Position numbers and translations under genes: made by a program. The notes beneath the pieces are model-generated. The model saw nothing but the letters and a program-made list of their open reading frames with translations, made no database searches and was not told the DNA's origin. This document shows positions 5,249 to 57,049 of a DNA stretch of 57,994 nucleotides, piece after piece. Position 1 is the first letter of the stretch. The number at the start of each line of letters is the position of its first letter. This DNA is from Candidatus Woesearchaeota archaeon (GTDB lineage: Archaea > Nanobdellota > Nanobdellia > Woesearchaeales > DSVV01). The stretch is from the NCBI GenBank assembly GCA_016219865.1, contig JACRKF010000033.1, positions 65,960 through 123,953 on the forward strand, in the 5' to 3' direction.

Positions 5249-5365
5249 GGACCAGTGGCCTAGCTTGGATAAGGCGGCAGCCTTCTAATGATACTATATA
5301 ATAGTTCATCTATATATAGTATAGTCGAAAGCTGCAGATCGGGAGTTCAAATCTTCCCTGGTCCG
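5249..5365 (+). tRNA. tRNA-Arg (anticodon TCT) with a 42-nt intron at 37/38
   Basis: The acceptor stem GGACCAG pairs perfectly with CTGGTCC (5358-5364), and the discriminator base is G at 5365. The D stem is GCCT/AGGC. The anticodon stem GCAGC/GCTGC closes a loop C-TTCTA-A, so the anticodon is TCT and reads AGA. The T arm is GGGAG-TTCAAAT-CTTCC with one G-T pair. The continuous loop is interrupted after base 37 by 42 nt (about 5288-5329). This intron folds into its own hairpin (ATACTATATA against TATATAGTAT), as expected for a bulge-helix-bulge intron cut by the archaeal tRNA endonuclease. No CCA is encoded. Confidence 0.93.
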
Positions 5366-23159: not shown

Positions 23160-24950
23160 TTACTTTTTCTTATACAGCTCATCCATTTCTTTTTTATATT
23201 CTTTCAGTATATTATATCTTCTCATTTTCAAAGTAGTAGTTAATTGATTATTTTCAACAGTAAATTCATTTGCAATAACTGCAAACTTTTTTATTTGCTC
23301 ATAATCCTGCAGATGCTGGTTGACTTTTGCAATCTCTGTCTCTATTGTTTGCAGTATCACTGGATTGCAAAGAAGCTCTTGCACATTATTTTTTTTGTCC
23401 GGATTGCCTGATTTTTGGAATTTTGTTTCACAAAATTCCACCAGATTAAGTTTCTTTGCTAATAACATAACTTCATCAATATCCGCAACAATAATCGCAG
23501 TAATATAAGGTTTATAATCGCCATACAGCATTGCCTGAGTAATATATTTGGATTCAACGAGCTCTTCTTCAATAGGTTCAGGAGCAATTTTTTTGCCGTA
23601 AGAAGTGACTAGCAAATTCTTCTTTCTGCCAGTTATATGCAAAAACCCTTCTTCATCAATAGTGCCAATATCTCCTGTGTGCAGCCAATGTTTAGATAAT
23701 GTTTTTTTTGTTTCTTTTATCTTATGCAAGTATGCTTTCATGATATTTGGACCTTGCGCAAGAATCTCACCATCATTTGCAATTTTAACTTTATCAGCTA
23801 TTGGGATGCCAACAGTTCCTCGCTTGTGCTTTTGCAATGTATTTACAGTTACAATTGGCGCTGCTTCTGTCAATCCATAGCCTTGCAATACTAATAATCC
23901 AATTGCATCAAAAAACTCTTCAATCTCAATTGTCAATGGCGCTCCACCGGAGACAAAAAAACGGAATTTATTTCCAAATTTGTGTTTTACTGGGAAAAAA
24001 ACTAATCTTGAAACAGAATTATATAATATTTTTGTTAATAATGGAATTTCTTTCTTATCATAAACAAAAGCATTATATTGTTTAGCAATCTCAAGAGCAT
24101 AATAAAATAAAGCTCTGGATATTGGATTTTTCTGATCAACTTTAAAGATAATAGTTTCATATAATTTCTCTAGAAATCTAGGAACTGTGTTAATGTAAGT
24201 TGGTTGTATTTTTCTTACTTCTTCAGCAAATGTTGTTACATTATTTGTATGCAGGATTGAAGCGCCGACTGAAAATGGAACATAATATCCAGCAACACGT
24301 TCAAACATATGTGTTAATGGAAGAAAAGAAAATACAACATCATTTTGCGTTATATTCATAGTCAATATCAATGGTTCTAATTCAGATATAATATTTTCAT
24401 GTGTTAAAATAACTCCTTTTGGTATTCCAGTAGAACCTGATGTATAAACAATAGTTGCAATATCTTTTTCATTTATAATCGTTTTATTTTTTTCAGCTTC
24501 TTCTAAATCTTTCACAGAAAGAAATGTCTTCATATAAGGATCATCAAATGTTAACGCATATTTTAATTTAGGAGTTTTCTGTTTTACTCTATTTAATAAT
24601 TCATCATTTTCTTTGCTTCCAGAAAATATTGCTTTAATTTCAGAGTCTTTAAGCATATATGTAAGAATTTTCTCACTTGTTTTATGATATATTGGAACAA
24701 CAATTGCGCCAATTGAAAGAATTGCTAAATCAGCAATAACCCATTCAGGAATATTCTCTGCAAAAATACCAATCTTATCACTTTTTTTTAAACCCAATTT
24801 TCTTAAGGTGATTGTCAGACTCAGCACTTTCTCATATAATTCTCTATATGTTAGTTGTCTATAATTCTGAGTATCTTTATATTGTAAGGCAATATTATTA
24901 GGATAATGTGCATAACTCTCATATAACATCTCAGGAATTATCTTTGCCAT
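23160..24950 (-). CDS. Long-chain acyl-CoA synthetase (AMP-forming)
   Basis: The enzyme activates fatty acids through acyl-AMP. The P-loop-like motif TIVYTSGSTGIPKGVILTHEN lies near residues 165-185. It is followed by FVSGGAPLTIEIEEFF, LQGYGLTEAAPIVTVN, and HWLHTGDIGTIDEEGFLHITGRKKNLLVTSYGKKIAPEPIE. The C-terminal catalytic lysine is in TTTLKMRRYNI. These features match the bacterial/eukaryal FadD15/FAA type. At about residues 503-517, the segment EFCETKFQKSGNPDK is encoded by a family B palindromic element, so part of the C-terminal subdomain is derived from a repeat. It is divergent from the alpha-oxoamine synthase gene across an AT-rich ~85-nt promoter region. Confidence 0.92.
   Translation of the reverse strand: MAKIIPEMLYESYAHYPNNIALQYKDTQNYRQLTYRELYEKVLSLTITLRKLGLKKSDKIGIFAENIPEWVIADLAILSIGAIVVPIYHKTSEKILTYMLKDSEIKAIFSGSKENDELLNRVKQKTPKLKYALTFDDPYMKTFLSVKDLEEAEKNKTIINEKDIATIVYTSGSTGIPKGVILTHENIISELEPLILTMNITQNDVVFSFLPLTHMFERVAGYYVPFSVGASILHTNNVTTFAEEVRKIQPTYINTVPRFLEKLYETIIFKVDQKNPISRALFYYALEIAKQYNAFVYDKKEIPLLTKILYNSVSRLVFFPVKHKFGNKFRFFVSGGAPLTIEIEEFFDAIGLLVLQGYGLTEAAPIVTVNTLQKHKRGTVGIPIADKVKIANDGEILAQGPNIMKAYLHKIKETKKTLSKHWLHTGDIGTIDEEGFLHITGRKKNLLVTSYGKKIAPEPIEEELVESKYITQAMLYGDYKPYITAIIVADIDEVMLLAKKLNLVEFCETKFQKSGNPDKKNNVQELLCNPVILQTIETEIAKVNQHLQDYEQIKKFAVIANEFTVENNQLTTTLKMRRYNILKEYKKEMDELYKKK
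23395..23439 (-). repeat. Family B palindromic element, copy 1, inside the acyl-CoA synthetase gene
   Basis: On the plus strand the box TTGTCCGGATTGCC (23395-23408) is followed by 8 nt and the palindrome GGAATTTTG-TTTCA-CAAAATTCC (23417-23439). It is in frame with the gene and encodes EFCETKFQKSGNPDK. Confidence 0.8.
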
Positions 24951-31204: not shown

Positions 31205-31242
31205 TGAATTTATTGAATGAACGAAGTGAATTCATAAATTCA
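31205..31242 (+). repeat. Family A hairpin, copy 5, overlapping the GNAT gene stop
   Basis: Arms TGAATTTAT and ATAAATTCA (9 bp, perfect) enclose T-GAAT-GA-AC-GAA-GT-GA-ATTC. The right arm contains the stop codon and last codons of the GNAT gene on the minus strand, so the hairpin would form at the very 3' end of that mRNA. Confidence 0.88.
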
Positions 31243-32503
31243 TCTCATAAATTCTATACACATTCTTTGCCTTCCCGCCTAATTTCTCAGCAAGATGCTT
31301 TGAAGCAGTATTTGTTTCCAACACCCAAGAATATTCACAGTTAACAAAACCTTTTTTCTTCAAGTTCATCAGCAGTTCATTTGCAAGAATTGTGCCAAAC
31401 CCTTTATGTTCATCATTCGGCAGCACACAGATCAATGCTAATCGCGCTTCTTTGATTGTTCGTTTATACCATAGAAATTGAATTATCTGTAATTTTTTGA
31501 CCAAATATCCTTTTGCCCGGATTGCCCAATTTGGAGAATTTTGCGGTAAATTAATTTGCGAATGCAAATTATGGCTGTTATCACAAAAATTCTCTGCTGT
31601 TATCTTATCAAGAATCAAATTATAATTAGGAATACAATACACAAAACCAACAGGAGCATCTTTATAATGAATAACTAATGTTAGTTCTCCATCTAATACT
31701 TCCTTAAGATCTTTGATTTGGTAATAAAATTCTTCAAAGGATATTGGATAATACAACCAATGCTTTGTCTTGCCATAAGCTTCAGAATAAATTTCAAAAG
31801 CAGTTTTTATTTTTGCATCAAATTCTTTCTTATTGAATTTGACAATCTTAATCTCAGAGTTTTTATTCTCTACAGTTTGATAATTCTTAAGATAAATTGT
31901 ATACGCCAGCAGATCAATTTTTTTTTTCATTTTCAATTTTTCAAAATGTTCAAGATAATATGCAGGATTTATTGGCATATGCATCTCAGGCAGTAACGAA
32001 AAATTATTCTGCAGCAAACCAATATTATTAAACATACTTCCATCAATTGGTCCAAGAATTTTCTTTACTTTCTTTTTTTTTAAATATCTCGCAATCTCTC
32101 TAAACAGTAATTTTGTGATAACAAAATTATTCTCAACTTCAAAAAAACCAAAAAATGCAGTTTTTTGGTTAGATGATTCTACAAAATTTGATCTTCGCAA
32201 TCTTCTTCCTAAATCCACCTTATCCGGATTGCCTGGCTTAAGAAAATTTTGCTTTGCAAAATTTTCTTTATTATTATACCCCCCATCAATAATAACAGCT
32301 ATTCTGCCAACTGCTTGATTACCCTGCATTGTAATAAATAGTTTATATTCTGCATGCTGCCAAAAAGGATTTTCTGGAGAAAAGAACTTTTCAACAGATT
32401 CTTCATTTTTATAGTAATTATAATGAAATCCATCTTTAAAGATCTGTTTAGAAACAGCTGCAAATTGCTTAATATCTTTTGTTTGATAAACACTAATTGC
32501 CAT
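31232..32503 (-). CDS. GNAT-fold acyltransferase carrying two in-frame repeat insertions
   Basis: The C-terminal ~100 residues match a GNAT acetyl-CoA site (ARLALICVLPNDEHKGFGTILANELLMNLKKKGFVNCEYSWVLETNTASKHLAEKLGGKAKNVYRIYEM). The N-terminal half may be a second, degenerate GNAT-like fold (YKLFITMQGNQAVGRIAVIIDGG..FFGFFEVENNF). This is the layout of a family of unknown substrate. Two segments come from family B repeats: NKENFAKQNFLKPGNPDK near residue 84 and a nested B+C element near residues 305-330 (FCDNSHNLHSQINLPQNSPNWAIRAKG). The gene remains open over 423 codons despite them. The stop lies in a family A hairpin. Confidence 0.78.
   Translation of the reverse strand: MAISVYQTKDIKQFAAVSKQIFKDGFHYNYYKNEESVEKFFSPENPFWQHAEYKLFITMQGNQAVGRIAVIIDGGYNNKENFAKQNFLKPGNPDKVDLGRRLRRSNFVESSNQKTAFFGFFEVENNFVITKLLFREIARYLKKKKVKKILGPIDGSMFNNIGLLQNNFSLLPEMHMPINPAYYLEHFEKLKMKKKIDLLAYTIYLKNYQTVENKNSEIKIVKFNKKEFDAKIKTAFEIYSEAYGKTKHWLYYPISFEEFYYQIKDLKEVLDGELTLVIHYKDAPVGFVYCIPNYNLILDKITAENFCDNSHNLHSQINLPQNSPNWAIRAKGYLVKKLQIIQFLWYKRTIKEARLALICVLPNDEHKGFGTILANELLMNLKKKGFVNCEYSWVLETNTASKHLAEKLGGKAKNVYRIYEMNL
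31513..31594 (-). repeat. Family B element, copy 3, with a family C element nested in its loop
   Basis: The box TTGCCCGGATTGCC (31513-31526) is followed by 7 nt and the arm GAGAATTTTG (31534-31543). Its partner CAAAAATTCTC lies 40 nt later (31584-31594), instead of the usual 3-5 nt. The intervening DNA is a family C element (31545-31582: GGTAA..TTATC, TAATTTGC/GCAAATTA). All of it is translated within the GNAT gene. Confidence 0.75.
32219..32268 (-). repeat. Family B palindromic element, copy 2, inside the GNAT gene
   Basis: Box TTATCCGGATTGCC (about 32220-32233), 6 nt, then the palindrome AAGAAAATTTTGC-TTT-GCAAAATTTTCTT (32240-32268, 13-bp arms). It encodes KENFAKQNFLKPGNPDK in frame, with the same GNPDK reading as copy 1. 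Confidence 0.82.
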
Positions 32504-34558: not shown

Positions 34559-35266
34559 ATGAAAGGAAGATTAGATAATAAAGTAATTGAATTAATGCGT
34601 AAATCATTATTTGTTTTAGAACCAAGTTTTCATAGGGAAGATCCTGATTATTCTAAGTTTAATCTATTATTAGTTGATGATAATCAGTCAATTATCGATT
34701 CTTTAAGTGCATATTTATCAGCATTAGAAAACTTTTCAGTTGTTGCAACAGCATCACCATATATTGCGCAAGAATTGATTAATTCATATAAACAAGATGA
34801 AATGATTACAACAGAAGTATTAATTGCGCGTGCTCTTATTGAGATGGATATTCATAAAGAAAAAAAGAAACTTGGTGATCAAGATTCTCGCTTATATCAA
34901 CAAGCAGGATTGCAATTGCCTGTTGGAAAAGATCTTAATCAAGTTTATCAAGAAGGTATTGTTCTTATAGTTTCTGATGCAAAAATGGGCGGAATTAATG
35001 GATTTCAACTGCTTAACTATGCTGCCCAGCAAATACCAGATGCATTTCGTTTGATATTAAGCGCTGAAGTTGGTTATGCACAACAAAGAAATCCTGAAGA
35101 ATTATTTTCTGCAGAAGCAGTTGGATTTGTCAATAAAGGACAATCTGATTATGAGAGTGCTCTTGTTGCAAAAATTAAATCAGTCTTTGGTCAAGAAGTG
35201 TTGGCAAGAAATCTTTCATCATTTGCAGAATATTATAGAAGACATATTCAAGATTTTAAGAGTTAG
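34559..35266 (+). CDS. Response regulator receiver with ~55-residue insertion (first copy)
   Basis: The receiver fold is recognisable from FNLLLVDDNQSIIDSL (acidic pair Asp 40-41), IVLIVSDAKMGGINGFQLLNYA (phosphorylatable Asp 140), LILSAEVG (Ser in place of Thr) and AVGFVNKGQSDYES (Lys). In CheY the acidic pair and the phosphorylation site are ~44 residues apart. Here the distance is 99, owing to an insert of helices between alpha 2 and beta 3 (KQDEMITTEVLIARALIEMD..LYQQAGLQLPVGKDLNQVYQEG). There is no DNA-binding or output domain. The extra 30 N-terminal residues are not found in the second copy. It follows the kinase gene by 1 nt. Confidence 0.82.
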   Translation: MKGRLDNKVIELMRKSLFVLEPSFHREDPDYSKFNLLLVDDNQSIIDSLSAYLSALENFSVVATASPYIAQELINSYKQDEMITTEVLIARALIEMDIHKEKKKLGDQDSRLYQQAGLQLPVGKDLNQVYQEGIVLIVSDAKMGGINGFQLLNYAAQQIPDAFRLILSAEVGYAQQRNPEELFSAEAVGFVNKGQSDYESALVAKIKSVFGQEVLARNLSSFAEYYRRHIQDFKS

Positions 35267-35302
35267 TTGATAGGATTTGATTTATATTGGAGGTTGATTA
35301 AA

Positions 35303-35881
35303 ATGGTTCATGAAAAAGTTGATTTTAGAACGTTTAATGTTGTGATGGTTGATGACAATAAAGATATGATGACTGCAGTTGGCACATATTTAAGATTAGT
35401 GGAACATTTCTCTGTGACGACAGTATCATCGCCATATATTGCAGTAGAATTAATTAAATCTTACAAAAGACAGGAGCTAGCTGTCACTCTAGAAACTCTT
35501 GCAGGACGTGCGTCAGTTAAAATGGCGCAAGATAAAGTTGATGGTAACATTGGAGAAGATGATTTTGATTTATATGGTGTTGCAGAGATAATTATTCCTG
35601 AAAATAAGACATTAGCTCAAATTTACCAAGAAGGTATCCTAGTTATAGTATCTGATGCAAAAATGGGTGGTATTGATGGATTCCAGCTTCTTAATTATGC
35701 AGCTAAGGAAATTCCTGCAACGTCTCGTTTGTTATTAAGCGCTGAACCAGGGTATATTAAACAAAAAGCGCTTGAAGAATTATTTGCAGCAGGAGCAATA
35801 GGTTACATATCAAAAGGAATGCCGGATTATGAAAGTAAACTTGTTGAAACAATAAGAGATATATTTGATAAGAAAATGTGA
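35303..35881 (+). CDS. Response regulator receiver with the same insertion (second copy)
   Basis: This is a paralogue of the upstream receiver: FNVVMVDDNKDMMTAVGTYL (Asp 17-18), ILVIVSDAKMGGIDGFQLLNYAAKEI (Asp 118), LLLSAEPG and AIGYISKGMPDYES (Lys 171). The insertion between alpha 2 and beta 3 has the same length and the same end (LAQIYQEG). Sequence identity is highest in the second half. ATG 35303 follows GGAGGT at 35290-35295. The in-frame codons back to 35267 are excluded. It has no output domain. The stop lies in a perfect hairpin shared with the convergent gene. Confidence 0.84.
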   Translation: MVHEKVDFRTFNVVMVDDNKDMMTAVGTYLRLVEHFSVTTVSSPYIAVELIKSYKRQELAVTLETLAGRASVKMAQDKVDGNIGEDDFDLYGVAEIIIPENKTLAQIYQEGILVIVSDAKMGGIDGFQLLNYAAKEIPATSRLLLSAEPGYIKQKALEELFAAGAIGYISKGMPDYESKLVETIRDIFDKKM

Positions 35882-37119: not shown

Positions 37120-37147
37120 CCTCTATTCTTTATTTTCCTGAGTGAGC

Positions 37148-37184
37148 GGTAAATTAATTGCCACAGCAATTATGGCTGCTTACC
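37148..37184 (+). repeat. Family C two-stem element, copy 1, at the TraB gene end
   Basis: GGTAA (37148-37152) pairs with TTACC (37180-37184) and TAATTGC with GCAATTA inside, with the unpaired strand TGGCTGC on the right. The last eight codons of the TraB gene (SSHNCCGN) and its stop are encoded by the element. Confidence 0.75.
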
Positions 37185-37897
37185 ACGAACTCGGAAAATA
37201 ATTTCTCCATTCCTTCAACATGTCCTGCGCCAACTACTGCAAGTATCTTCTTTTCAGGATATTTTTTGCGCATTTTAACTAATGTTTTTACCATCACAGT
37301 ATTTCTTTCACTAACTAACACTCTATATATATTAGGATATTTCTTTTTCATCGCAGTTGTTAAAACTGCAATGAATTGATTAGATGGAACTTGTGTTAAA
37401 TCAAGTGTTTCTAAATCTAAACCAAGCTCTTTATACTCAGCAAGCGCTTTCTTTTTTCTAAAGATTGAGTTAAATATATCTTTTAAAAATACCCATTTTT
37501 CTTTCCAACTTAATGCTTTCGAGAATCGTGATAAGGTAATTTCAATATCCTGATCAATCAATGCAACTTCAAGATTTCTTTTTTTTGCTTCTTTTATTGC
37601 AGTTAGCATCTCATCTCCAGGTGTAGCGCCAACAACACTGCCTAATTTTTTCGAAGCATATGAACCAATAAGACCAAATAAATAGCCTTTCAAGCCAATC
37701 TTTGGAATCATGCCAAGAGAAAATCGTGATTTCTTTTTCTGTTTATCATTCATTAAAGAGATATATCGTTTTGAATCAAGTTCAACAGCAACAATAGTTG
37801 GTTGAAACTCTTCTATAGCTTTTCGTACCTCTTCAACACTTTGCTTTGCTATATGTGATGTTCCAATGATTTTGATATTATTTATCTGATTAAGCAT
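37154..37897 (-). CDS. TraB/PrgY family protein
   Basis: TraB-like proteins resemble a Tiki/EreA-type fold and are known from pheromone shutdown in enterococci. Their archaeal role is unknown. The two signature histidine motifs are IIGTSHIAKQSVEEVRKAIEEFQPTIVAVELDSKRY at the N terminus and ILAVVGAGHVEGMEKLF at the C terminus, with ATPGDEMLTAIKEAKKRNLEVALIDQDIEITLSR between. Most archaeal members continue into C-terminal membrane helices. This one stops at 247 aa just after the core, and its last residues SSHNCCGN are derived from a family C repeat. It may thus have lost a membrane domain by repeat insertion. Confidence 0.82.
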   Translation of the reverse strand: MLNQINNIKIIGTSHIAKQSVEEVRKAIEEFQPTIVAVELDSKRYISLMNDKQKKKSRFSLGMIPKIGLKGYLFGLIGSYASKKLGSVVGATPGDEMLTAIKEAKKRNLEVALIDQDIEITLSRFSKALSWKEKWVFLKDIFNSIFRKKKALAEYKELGLDLETLDLTQVPSNQFIAVLTTAMKKKYPNIYRVLVSERNTVMVKTLVKMRKKYPEKKILAVVGAGHVEGMEKLFSEFVVSSHNCCGN

Positions 37898-41453: not shown

Positions 41454-41472
41454 ATTACTAATAAAAAATAAC

Positions 41473-41507
41473 GGTAAATTAATTGCGAAGCAATTATGGC
41501 TTTTACC
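41473..41507 (+). repeat. Family C two-stem element, copy 2, upstream of pyrH
   Basis: GGTAAA/TTTACC (41473-41478, 41502-41507) forms the outer stem. TAATTGC/GCAATTA with a GAA loop forms the inner stem, and TGGCT is unpaired on the right. The element is intergenic and ends just before the ribosome binding site region of pyrH. Confidence 0.75.
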
Positions 41508-41525
41508 TGAAGTGAGGAATTTTTT

Positions 41526-42200
41526 ATGATGGAAACAGTAATTTTATCATTAGGTGGTTCATTGATCTGTCCAGAGAACATAGATGTTACATTTCTGCAG
41601 CAGTTCAAGCAATTGCTCTCTTCTTTCCCCAAAAAAAGATTTGCATTGATCTGTGGTGGCGGGCATATTTGCAGAGTATACCAAAAAGCAGCAAAAGAAT
41701 TAGGTGTTGCTTCTTCAGAAGAGCTTGATTGGATAGGCATAAAAGCAACAAAACTCAATGCAGAGCTTGTACGAACTCTTTTTGGAAAAGAAGCGTATGA
41801 AACAGTGATTGATAATCCAGAACAAAAAATCAAAACAAATAAACAAATCGTTATAGGTTCTGGCTACATTCCAGGTTCATCAAGTGATTTAGATGCAGTC
41901 CATCTGGCAAAAAATTTAGGTGCAAAAACTGTTATTAATCTGAGCAATATTGATTATTTGTACGACAAAGATCCAAAGCAATTTTCTGACGCTCAGAAAA
42001 TTGTTAAGGCAACATTTAAACAATTGTTAGAAATAACAGGCAAAGAATGGGTTCCTGGAAAAAATGTGCCATTTGATCCAGCTGCAAGCAAACAAGCAAT
42101 GATTGCTGGAATCACAGTTGTTTTGATGAATGGAAAGAACTTGGATAATCTAAAAAATTATCTAGATGGGAAGAAGTTTGTTGGGAGTGTTATTGAATAG
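41526..42200 (+). CDS. pyrH: UMP kinase (uridylate kinase)
   Basis: This enzyme of the amino acid kinase fold makes UDP from UMP. The archaeal type is seen in ILSLGGSLICPENIDVTFLQQF, FALICGGGHICRVYQKAAKELGV, DWIGIKATKLNAELVRTLFG, GSGYIPGSSSDLDAVHLAKNLGAKTVINLSNIDYLYDKDPKQF and PGKNVPFDPAASKQA. The length is 224 aa. Two ATGs (41526 and 41529) are possible. GAGG lies 10-15 nt before them. It is a single gene after the transporter pair. Confidence 0.94.
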   Translation: MMETVILSLGGSLICPENIDVTFLQQFKQLLSSFPKKRFALICGGGHICRVYQKAAKELGVASSEELDWIGIKATKLNAELVRTLFGKEAYETVIDNPEQKIKTNKQIVIGSGYIPGSSSDLDAVHLAKNLGAKTVINLSNIDYLYDKDPKQFSDAQKIVKATFKQLLEITGKEWVPGKNVPFDPAASKQAMIAGITVVLMNGKNLDNLKNYLDGKKFVGSVIE

Positions 42201-43665: not shown

Positions 43666-43755
43666 TTATTTTTTCTTTCTTCTTTCTATTTCTTCATTTA
43701 AGAAACTGACTTCTTCCTGAGCATCTAATCGCAGCTTAACAGATAATATTTGCTG
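43666..43755 (-). pseudogene. C-terminal gene fragment fused to a family A hairpin
   Basis: Between the cysteine-rich frame and the zinc-ribbon gene, the minus strand encodes ILSVKLRLDAQEEVSFLNEEIERRKKK and a stop at 43666. The composition is typical of a real C-terminal helix, but there is no start codon. Upstream it runs into the family A hairpin at 43744-43783. It is probably the remains of a deleted gene. Confidence 0.3.
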
Positions 43756-43783
43756 AATGAACGAAGTGAATTCGCAAATATTA
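43744..43783 (+). repeat. Family A hairpin, copy 6, overlapping a stop codon
   Basis: Arms TAATATTTGC and GCAAATATTA (10 bp, perfect) enclose T-GAAT-GA-AC-GAA-GT-GA-ATTC, a core identical to copy 5 although the arms differ. The right arm supplies the TAA stop of the zinc-ribbon gene on the minus strand. Confidence 0.9.
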
Positions 43784-44026
43784 AATCAAATGTTTAACCC
43801 TTTCATCACCCATAACCTCTTTTTCAATCCAAGAACAATCTTTCTTATTATTATGAGTAATCTTGACGCTAGCTTCCTTTCCGCATTCGCAGATAGCAAC
43901 CTTATAGAGAAGTTCATGAAGAATATGTTCTGTTTTAAATTGATCCAATTGTAAACTATTGCCGCAATACAAACACTGCTCTTTAAAGATATCTTCTTTT
44001 AACAAGTGATGCACTATTCCTACCAA
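43781..44026 (-). CDS. Small zinc-ribbon-like protein, unknown
   Basis: The 81-aa protein MVGIVHHLLKEDIFKEQCLYCGNSLQLDQFKTEHILHELLYKVAICECGKEASVKITHNNKKDCSWIEKEVMGDERVKHLI has CxxC and CxC pairs (CLYC and CEC) likely to bind zinc. I do not recognise a named family. The frame starts with TTG at 44026. A GTG four codons later is another possible start. The stop codon is formed by a family A hairpin. Function unknown. Confidence 0.6.
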   Translation of the reverse strand: MVGIVHHLLKEDIFKEQCLYCGNSLQLDQFKTEHILHELLYKVAICECGKEASVKITHNNKKDCSWIEKEVMGDERVKHLI

Positions 44027-44062: not shown

Positions 44063-44111
44063 TTGTCCAAATTGCTTAATCTATGAGAATTTTCCTGATA
44101 AGGAAAATTCT
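44063..44111 (-). repeat. Family B palindromic element, copy 5, directly after cutA
   Basis: The box variant TTGTCCAAATTGC (44063-44075) is followed by the palindrome AGAATTTTCCT-GATA-AGGAAAATTCT (44086-44111). The last base of the right arm is the last base of the cutA stop codon. The box has two changes from the consensus. Confidence 0.65.
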
Positions 44112-44413
44112 TATTTCATTGTCGTTTGCATCCATTGCTGATATTCTTTATTGCATCGGGCATTGAACTTTATTATACACGGACATTCATAAGAATGTAT
44201 CTCTTTTACTTCTTTCTGAATTTGGTTATATTTATTGTTTTCTGTTTTGACTAGTAAAACATACTCCTGTGAGTATTCAACAGTAGCATTCCAAAGATAC
44301 ATACTCTCTATCGGAAAGAAATTCGCGCAAGCAATTAACTTCTGAGCAAGCAGATGCTTTGCGATATTCATTGATTCTTCCTTATCTTTACAGGTGATGT
44401 AGAGGATGATCAT
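44111..44413 (-). CDS. cutA: CutA1 divalent ion tolerance protein
   Basis: The 100-aa protein MIILYITCKDKEESMNIAKHLLAQKLIACANFFPIESMYLWNATVEYSQEYVLLVKTENNKYNQIQKEVKEIHSYECPCIIKFNARCNKEYQQWM has the CutA1 pattern: the AxxLVxxxLxACxN helix end, Y-W-G/N..E.E..LLxK, and the YxxPxI strand. CutA1 forms trimers and has been linked to copper tolerance, though its true role is unclear. No neighbours relate to metals. A family B element follows the stop directly. Confidence 0.9.
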   Translation of the reverse strand: MIILYITCKDKEESMNIAKHLLAQKLIACANFFPIESMYLWNATVEYSQEYVLLVKTENNKYNQIQKEVKEIHSYECPCIIKFNARCNKEYQQWMQTTMK

Positions 44414-53180: not shown

Positions 53181-53226
53181 TTATCCGAATTACTTGCTGT
53201 GAGAATCTTGTAAAACAAGATTCTCA
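53181..53226 (-). repeat. Family B palindromic element, copy 4, forming the cysS C terminus
   Basis: The box variant TTATCCGAATTAC (53181-53193), 6-7 nt, and the palindrome TGAGAATCTTG-TAAAA-CAAGATTCTCA (53200-53226). It encodes the last residues of CysS (DENLVLQDSHSK) and the stop codon. Confidence 0.75.
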
Positions 53227-54632
53227 TCTCGCTTCTTTCTCAATCTATATCCAGTATTAGTATCATCTAATATATATCCTTTAGAAATAATCTCTTTTCG
53301 CAATTTGTCAGATGTAGCAAAATCTTTTTTCTTTCTTACTCGTTCTCTTTCTTCAGCAAGCATTATTATTTCTCTAGGCATTGCAGATTCTTCTGTATGC
53401 ATTACCCCAAGCACAGAATCTATTTTTTTCATAAAATCAGTAATATCAACTGCATTTTTCTTTCCAACTTTATTTTCAGATGCCAATACATTGATTCGTC
53501 GAATAAATTCAAAAATTACAGCTAATCCTTGAGAGATTTCTAAATCATCATCCATAGCTTCTTCAAATTGTTTTTGCGCATTTTCAATAATCGCTGCAAT
53601 TTCATTATTTTCAACAGTATTATTTAGATTCTTCACTTCATCTAATGAAGCAAAGAATATATCAAACTTCTCAATAACCTTTTCAGCAGCATCAATTCCT
53701 TGCAGTGTGAAATTTAATTGTTGTCTATAATGTGAAGACAACAACAAATATCTAATTGCTCGTGCTTTGTATCCCTGTATTAGTAAATCTCTAAGTGTAA
53801 AAAAGTTTCCCAAAGATTTTGACATCTTTTTTCCATTAACAAGAATATATTCATTATGCAGCCAATAATTGACAAATTTCTTTCCAGTTACTGCTTCTGA
53901 TTGTGCAATCTCATTTTCATGATGCGGAAAAATCAGATCAATTCCTCCTGTGTGAATATCAAAATGTTCTGCTAAATGCTGCATTGCCATGACACTGCAT
54001 TCAATATGCCATCCTGGTCTTCCTTTGCCAAAAGGACTTTCCCAAACACAATCGCCATCTTTTTCTGTCCAGAATTTCCAGAGCGCAAAATCCTGTGCAT
54101 TCTCTTTATCATATTCATCATTCTTCACACGCACTCCTGTTTTTGTTTCATCAAGCTTTATTTTAGATAACTTTCCATAATTTCTAAACTTACTTATGCT
54201 AAAATAAATACCATCTCTTGCTTGATACGCAATTTCATTATCAAGCAGTTTCTGTGTTAAATGAATCATTCCATGTATGTGCTGTGTTGCTCGAGGAAAA
54301 ACATAAGCTTTACTAATATTTAACTTTTCCAAATCTTCAAAGAAAGCTATTGTGTATTTCTCAGTAAATTCATGCAAGCTTAAGCCTTCTTTTTGTGAAT
54401 CACGAATTGTTTTATCATCAACATCAGTAATATTCATTACTTGTTTGACAGCAAAACCTTTGTACAACAGATACCGTTTCAGAATATCACTGCAGATATA
54501 CGCTCGAAAATTTCCAATATGCGCATAATTATACACAGTTGGCCCGCAGTTGTACATCGTTGCACTGTTTTTTTCAATAGGCTTAAACAATTCTTTCTTT
54601 TGTGTAAATGTATTGTAAAATTGGAGTGCCAT
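53190..54632 (-). CDS. cysS: Cysteinyl-tRNA synthetase
   Basis: The class I signature HIGN is at residues 38-41 (CGPTVYNYAHIGNFRAYICSDILKRYL) and KMSKS near 270 (NGKKMSKSLGNFFTLRDLL). Zinc ligands are Cys 29, the cysteine of WHIECSVMAMQHL, and the His/Glu of IDLIFPHHENEIAQSEA. The anticodon-binding helical domain follows, with the typical end FATSDKLRKEIISKGYILDDTNTGYRLRKK. The last 12 residues (DENLVLQDSHSK) lie beyond the usual end and are encoded by a family B palindromic element. It is a single transcription unit, with TATA-like sequences upstream of 54632. Confidence 0.96.
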   Translation of the reverse strand: MALQFYNTFTQKKELFKPIEKNSATMYNCGPTVYNYAHIGNFRAYICSDILKRYLLYKGFAVKQVMNITDVDDKTIRDSQKEGLSLHEFTEKYTIAFFEDLEKLNISKAYVFPRATQHIHGMIHLTQKLLDNEIAYQARDGIYFSISKFRNYGKLSKIKLDETKTGVRVKNDEYDKENAQDFALWKFWTEKDGDCVWESPFGKGRPGWHIECSVMAMQHLAEHFDIHTGGIDLIFPHHENEIAQSEAVTGKKFVNYWLHNEYILVNGKKMSKSLGNFFTLRDLLIQGYKARAIRYLLLSSHYRQQLNFTLQGIDAAEKVIEKFDIFFASLDEVKNLNNTVENNEIAAIIENAQKQFEEAMDDDLEISQGLAVIFEFIRRINVLASENKVGKKNAVDITDFMKKIDSVLGVMHTEESAMPREIIMLAEERERVRKKKDFATSDKLRKEIISKGYILDDTNTGYRLRKKRDENLVLQDSHSK

Positions 54633-56967: not shown

Positions 56968-57003
56968 GTATTTGCTGAACGAGCGAAGCGAGTTCGCAAA
57001 TAC
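56968..57003 (+). repeat. Family A hairpin, copy 7
   Basis: Arms GTATTTGC and GCAAATAC (8 bp, perfect) enclose T-GAAC-GA-GC-GAA-GC-GA-GTTC. The fourth stem pair is C-G here, T-A in other copies. It lies after the membrane protein gene and ~10 nt before the TATA of the RNA candidate. Confidence 0.88.
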
Positions 57004-57049
57004 TAAATACATAACTATTTATACTACTCACTATACCCTATTGATATAG

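Follow-up and report, generated by a model that had tools for sequence, protein, structure and literature searches.

How does a protein-coding gene come to carry, in frame, a palindrome whose two arms are held apart by a second hairpin? Such an arrangement occurs in a two-part GNAT acetyltransferase gene (31232..32503, minus strand, 423 codons) within the window, the whole stretch of 57,994 nt analysed here, which forms part of contig C18 in a Woesearchaeota genome (G000) of 1.34 Mb. Is the segment an insertion or ancestral protein sequence? Which repeat came first, and what could bring one hairpin into the loop of another? The explanation that best fits the whole, to which we give a probability of about 75%, invokes two mobile palindromes, here called B and C, both non-autonomous and one nested in the other, with C landing preferentially at hairpin tips. 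The comparator was a single congener genome (G001), and the polarity of some events was set by parsimony.

Two palindromes nested in a GNAT gene

The GNAT reading frame, which matches Pfam Acetyltransf_1 (E 9.7e-7) and shows a dN/dS of about 0.2 relative to the congener, stays open through two B insertions; the best fold matches of its predicted model are the glucosamine N-acetyltransferases 5kf1/5kf2 and tandem GNATs. The younger B copy (plus strand, approximate insertion span 31493..31594) comprises a left tail (TGTAATTTTTTGACCAAATATCC, plus strand, within that span) matching a paralogue on contig C40, a core recognised by pattern match (TTGCCCGGATTGCC, 31513..31526, plus strand), and a hairpin with left arm GAGAATTTTG (31534..31543, plus strand) and right arm CAAAAATTCTC (31584..31594, plus strand), and scores 44.7 bits (E 6e-8) with the B covariance model. 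The loop of this hairpin is a 40-nt C element (CGGTAAATTAATTTGCGAATGCAAATTATGGCTGTTATCA, 31544..31583, plus strand), with an outer stem GGTAA/TTATC (31545-31549 with 31578-31582, plus strand), an inner stem AATTTGC/GCAAATT (31553-31559 with 31564-31570, plus strand) and the conserved unpaired ATGGC; folded as single-stranded DNA, the nested segment has z = -4.2. The first-pass annotation had described a repeat nested in a repeat, both in frame, and its coordinates prove exact: the 40 nt between the arms are a C copy, and the whole segment lies within the open 423-codon frame. It had also set this gap against a usual spacing of 3-5 nt, which is right for the 40 nt but too strict for the rest, many plain B loops measuring 3-6 nt and others 10-17 nt.

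The congener protein (392 aa) has ITA-KSKFFQ in place of the ITA-ENFCDNSHNLHSQINLPQNSPNWAIRAKGYLVKK-LQ of the window protein, and the 30-aa block (net 30 codons) is also missing from the closer of the distant homologues. Since the congener lacks the whole block, the latter is an insertion, and a recent one, and not the ancestral sequence shared by orthologues that the first-pass annotation had named as the opposing outcome. That the 82-nt segment is ordinary ancestral coding sequence in which the repeats arose by chance, as the frame left open across it might suggest, is hardly conceivable given the proteins without the block, and given that the B pattern and the C core recur throughout the genome with zero matches to the reversed-pattern control, which speaks against a chance match.

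A second B copy of the same gene (32220..32268, plus strand) is shared with the congener and missing in distant GNAT homologues, and thus represents an older insertion. Both inserts (residues 75-113 and 302-324) are predicted at pLDDT below 50 in an AlphaFold model, which is supportive only, because the mean pLDDT is 68.6 and the alignment holds seven sequences. The GNAT stop codon is itself covered by a palindrome of a further family, D3 (31207..31246, an unstranded repeat match), with other copies in the window at 43747-43786 and 56969-57008.

Other features of the window include a tRNA match that spans 117 nt (5249-5365), suggesting an intron, and a 263-nt duplication, 71% identical (34939-35201 and 35617-35879), with copy 1 in a response-regulator ORF (34559-35266) and copy 2 in the adjacent ORF (35267-35881), adjoining a histidine-kinase-like gene.

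Family B and its insertions in protein genes

Family B consists of a core (TTGTCCGGATTGCC) and a hairpin, preceded by an AT-rich left tail of about 25-40 nt. This tail is weakly conserved, and the full form (about 75-100 nt) is therefore longer than the covariance model, built on core plus hairpin (45-85 nt). The B pattern has 21 matches in G000 at up to 3 mismatches (reversed-pattern control, 0), and the covariance model finds about 65 full-model copies in G000 and about 20 in the congener. At E<=1e-5, and among 193 genomes sampled across the order, B is found in just these two, bar one match in a 64%-complete genome; matches in G009 and G010 were left out of the B counts, because they span the hairpin half only. 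B is thus essentially absent from the rest of the order sample, and the strict pattern gave no matches over the genome collection, in which near genomes may be missing. No terminal repeat pair (a MITE criterion) was seen in B, and no target duplication is resolvable for the inserts at an interspecies identity of about 80%.

The 12-bp B stem is paired in 98% of cells. Changes on both sides of a pair number 53, where shuffles give 4.8, and few G-U intermediates occur; leaving out the outermost pair, two-sided changes number 37 and one-sided changes 7. This pattern suggests that complementarity may be maintained at the DNA level and does not reflect a gradual compensation in RNA. Could C then have spread by copying between hairpins, replication template switching or gene conversion at the tips swapping one loop for another? 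The loops of otherwise similar B copies differ greatly, the two arms change together and pass through few G-U intermediates, and a B copy shared by the two species within an ORF (C34:6732) differs between them by its loop (AAA versus TCC), together with a matched two-arm change. However, C also occupies palindromes, D3 among them, with arms that bear no relation to B, leaving little homology for such an exchange, and we regard this route as possible but doubtful. As a separate observation, one B hairpin of G000 (C17:19595-19675, L107), within a short ORF, has a loop of about 45 nt unrelated to C.

B copies occur both within genes and between them, 30 of the 63 examined lying within ORFs, where they are read in several frames and in either orientation, with translations such as KENFAKLQNSPNQAIRT, LSGLPDSENLAKQ and GEFC..SGNPD. 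Within the window, one copy (23395..23440, plus strand) lies in an AMP-binding ligase ORF (23160-24950, minus strand) and is absent in the congener orthologue, and the covariance model places two others in an essentially intergenic position (44063..44114, plus strand, degenerate) and across the 3' end of an ORF (53181..53227, plus strand; ORF 53190-54632, minus strand). Class I tRNA synthetases (IleRS, LeuRS) are among the host proteins, as are a PfkB kinase, a PLP enzyme, a PUA protein, diphosphomevalonate decarboxylase and TYW3. Among the 20 in-ORF copies with an aligned congener orthologue, 18 are absent there (including those of IleRS, LeuRS and the PfkB kinase, and a few less secure ones located at N-termini or within small ORFs) and 2 are shared. 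Most of the enzymes tested are longer by a net 13-30 aa, and the host genes are under purifying selection relative to the congener (dS 0.57-1.87, dN 0.05-0.13). We attribute the retention of the frame, and the siting in tolerant protein loops, to selection after insertion.

Family C and the tips of hairpins

Family C is itself a hairpin of 34-40 nt, in which GGTAA..TTACC surrounds AATTGC..GCAATT, with stems that vary compatibly (5-6 bp for the outer one) and an unpaired ATGGC that is nearly invariant. Its core pattern has 12 exact matches in G000 (control, 0), and its covariance model finds 14 copies in G000 and about 7 in the congener, with no match in a further nine genomes of the same family. 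These copies are nearly always located at the tip of another palindrome, be it B, D3 or C: seven lie at B-type hairpin tips, several at the tips of D3 palindromes (GAGC-loop-GCGAG), and others cap further palindromes, such as the TTTTCC/GGAAAA palindrome of the window (37145..37186, plus strand). The first-pass annotation, which took C to target hairpin loops, had proposed looking for palindromes around its other copies. Inverted arms flank 16 of the 18 C sites, each at a background frequency of at most 0.021 (compared with 20,000 random positions), although the B-nested sites are not independent, because their arms share ancestry; location at hairpin tips thus holds generally, across several unrelated hairpin families. 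In the congener, nesting reaches three levels (L192, G001:C44:3635-3709), with C inside C inside D3. Elsewhere in that genome, a tandem degenerate C pair (L196, G001:C12:46466-46540) is absent at the orthologous G000 place (L093).

Hairpins with and without C are found at three orthologous places, one pair being cleanly syntenic and two one-sided. In the leader of a pilin-like gene, with synteny on both sides, the congener has a C element between GACGAGC and GCGAGG, where G000 has ACGAAC-GAA-GTGAGG. The C-in-C nest in D3 on contig C44 of the congener corresponds to a plain D3 in G000 (L085, about 1780; synteny on the right side only), and a C in a B-type hairpin on contig C35 of G000 to a plain hairpin in the congener (synteny on the left side only). 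These pairs indicate that hairpin tips have either acquired or lost C, acquisition being the simpler reading. Together with the 18 of 20 in-ORF B copies absent from congener orthologues, they bear out the earlier suggestion that both families have been mobile.

Is C instead primarily a functional RNA hairpin of 5' leaders, its presence in B loops being secondary? Several copies lie just 5' of start codons at similar spacing (L043, L047, L062, L048, L117), and the near invariance of the unpaired ATGGC could be read in the same way. However, no curated structured-RNA family of Rfam matched C, the orthologous pilin-like leader exists without it, and another gene of G000 has a similar leader whose loop is plain AAA, which makes a primary leader function improbable. 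In the window, one C copy lies in the leader of an ORF (41470..41509, plus strand; ORF 41526-42200, plus strand). Regarding leaders in general, D3-type hairpins (GACGAGC-loop-GCGAGG) stand directly 5' of the start codons of several genes (L194, L207, L081 at about 9500, and others), some of them with C in the loop and a possible effect on translation, and a congener repeat of about 110 nt (CTATTGACAGGTGGTGGAATTCGTAAGCG..CCAGTGGTTCTTGACA), found in at least 2 leaders (L194 at about 1380-1500, and L224), represents another MITE-like family.

Order of events, possible movers and known systems

The first-pass annotation considered the order of events to be readable at the GNAT locus, B first and C into its loop, and expected relatives with B only or with neither element. 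The second expectation was confirmed in part, the one congener available having neither element and no B-only site being seen; the first was not, since a congener with neither element leaves the order unreadable from orthologues, and B and C together could have landed in one step. A composite of B and C assembled elsewhere, C having entered the B lineage earlier, would account for the absence of both elements from the congener at the GNAT and PfkB sites, and the seven C copies in B-type hairpins show that composites are common. Yet each of the five core-bearing composites is nearest, by core and left arm, to a simple B and none to another composite, and their junctions differ (TGCAGGT, TGCGGT, TGGGT). 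Both observations argue against one spreading composite family, which the nearest-neighbour comparison of cores and left arms does not favour, but not against a composite landing at GNAT, and a one-step arrival there is a serious possibility, if short of an even chance. The paralogue nearest to the GNAT copy (C40:2577, 89% over 56 nt) has a loop unrelated to C. On this indirect support, B first and C later is favoured for the GNAT B lineage, and the comparison speaks for C having entered B loops more than once; C may have joined either before or after the arrival of B in GNAT.

How would such elements move? In the nested-palindrome reading, B would spread in this Woesearchaeota genus by landing within genes and between them, and the copies that persist would be those in frame and in tolerant protein loops, as with the Rickettsia palindromic elements. 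C would land preferentially where a hairpin already has its tip (B, a D3 palindrome or another C), the probable target being the loop exposed in a cruciform or a single-stranded hairpin. In GNAT, B inserted into the linker that precedes the core GNAT beta strand, at some time since the divergence from the congener, and its loop now carries C. Copying may involve a trans-acting enzyme or template switching during replication, and B and C are most likely non-autonomous hairpins moved in trans or by hairpin-mediated copying, loop exposure targeting C. More tentatively, C could be a mobile element of exceptionally small size (34-40 nt) that recognises hairpin tips by shape and not by sequence, can enter its own loop and can be carried in frame in protein genes; if true, it would define a loop-targeting mobility with an as yet hypothetical enzyme.

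Two candidate movers were rejected: a Y1/RAYT transposase, PF01797 being absent from the G000 assembly (91% complete) and present as a fragment only in G001, and a reverse transcriptase, of which G000 has two genes (RVT_1; C18:127227-127844, just beyond the window, and C5:3638-4255) and G001 none, though it has B and C. As the apparent target is the loop, both genomes could be searched for common candidate enzymes, and nesting, with matched loci that have or lack the inner element, makes the movement of miniature palindromes directly testable.

In the open-access literature searched, no case of in-frame protein-coding palindromes was found in archaea. The palindromic elements of Rickettsia and Wolbachia (RPE) are short repeats of several families found in frame in unrelated, often metabolic genes, with the ORF kept (PMC10969869, PMC3767692). 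B resembles them as a many-copy palindromic repeat with near-complete stem pairing and by its frame-keeping copies within ORFs, mostly adding 13 to 30 aa, a likeness of features alone, whereas RPE measure 100-150 nt and belong to Rickettsia/Wolbachia, and B measures about 45-100 nt in an archaeal host. In R. japonica, orthologues are reported with a palindromic insert at the same locus (PMC3767692), while most tested in-ORF B copies are species-specific. The genus thus repeats the Rickettsia/Wolbachia phenomenon, recently, in essential enzymes and with an empty-site comparator. For C, the nearest archaeal parallel is SMR-A of Haloquadratum walsbyi, transposase-free repeats that insert by preference in the near-terminal palindromes of other elements (PATEs, IS605-type), without target duplication and with an enigmatic mobilisation (PMC3119063). 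C also inserts within palindromes of other elements, but SMR-A is about 110 bp long, has prominent terminal inverted repeats and hits transposon ends, whereas C is 34-40 nt long, is itself one hairpin, and lies in the loops of several families including its own, some in protein genes. B and C were not filed as RPE or SMR-A, because size and taxon differ from the former, and size and terminal repeats from the latter. IS1397, IS621 and related insertion sequences aim at REP palindromes or palindromic units (PMC1525189), but are full insertion sequences with transposases, unlike the miniature hairpins B and C, and in Volvox carteri organelles short palindromic repeats often lie inside other palindromic repeats (PMC2670323), but in organelle genomes and almost only in non-coding DNA. 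In-frame insertion into genes is therefore known from Rickettsia, and the nesting of palindromes from Haloquadratum and Volvox organelles; here, both are combined in one archaeal genus.
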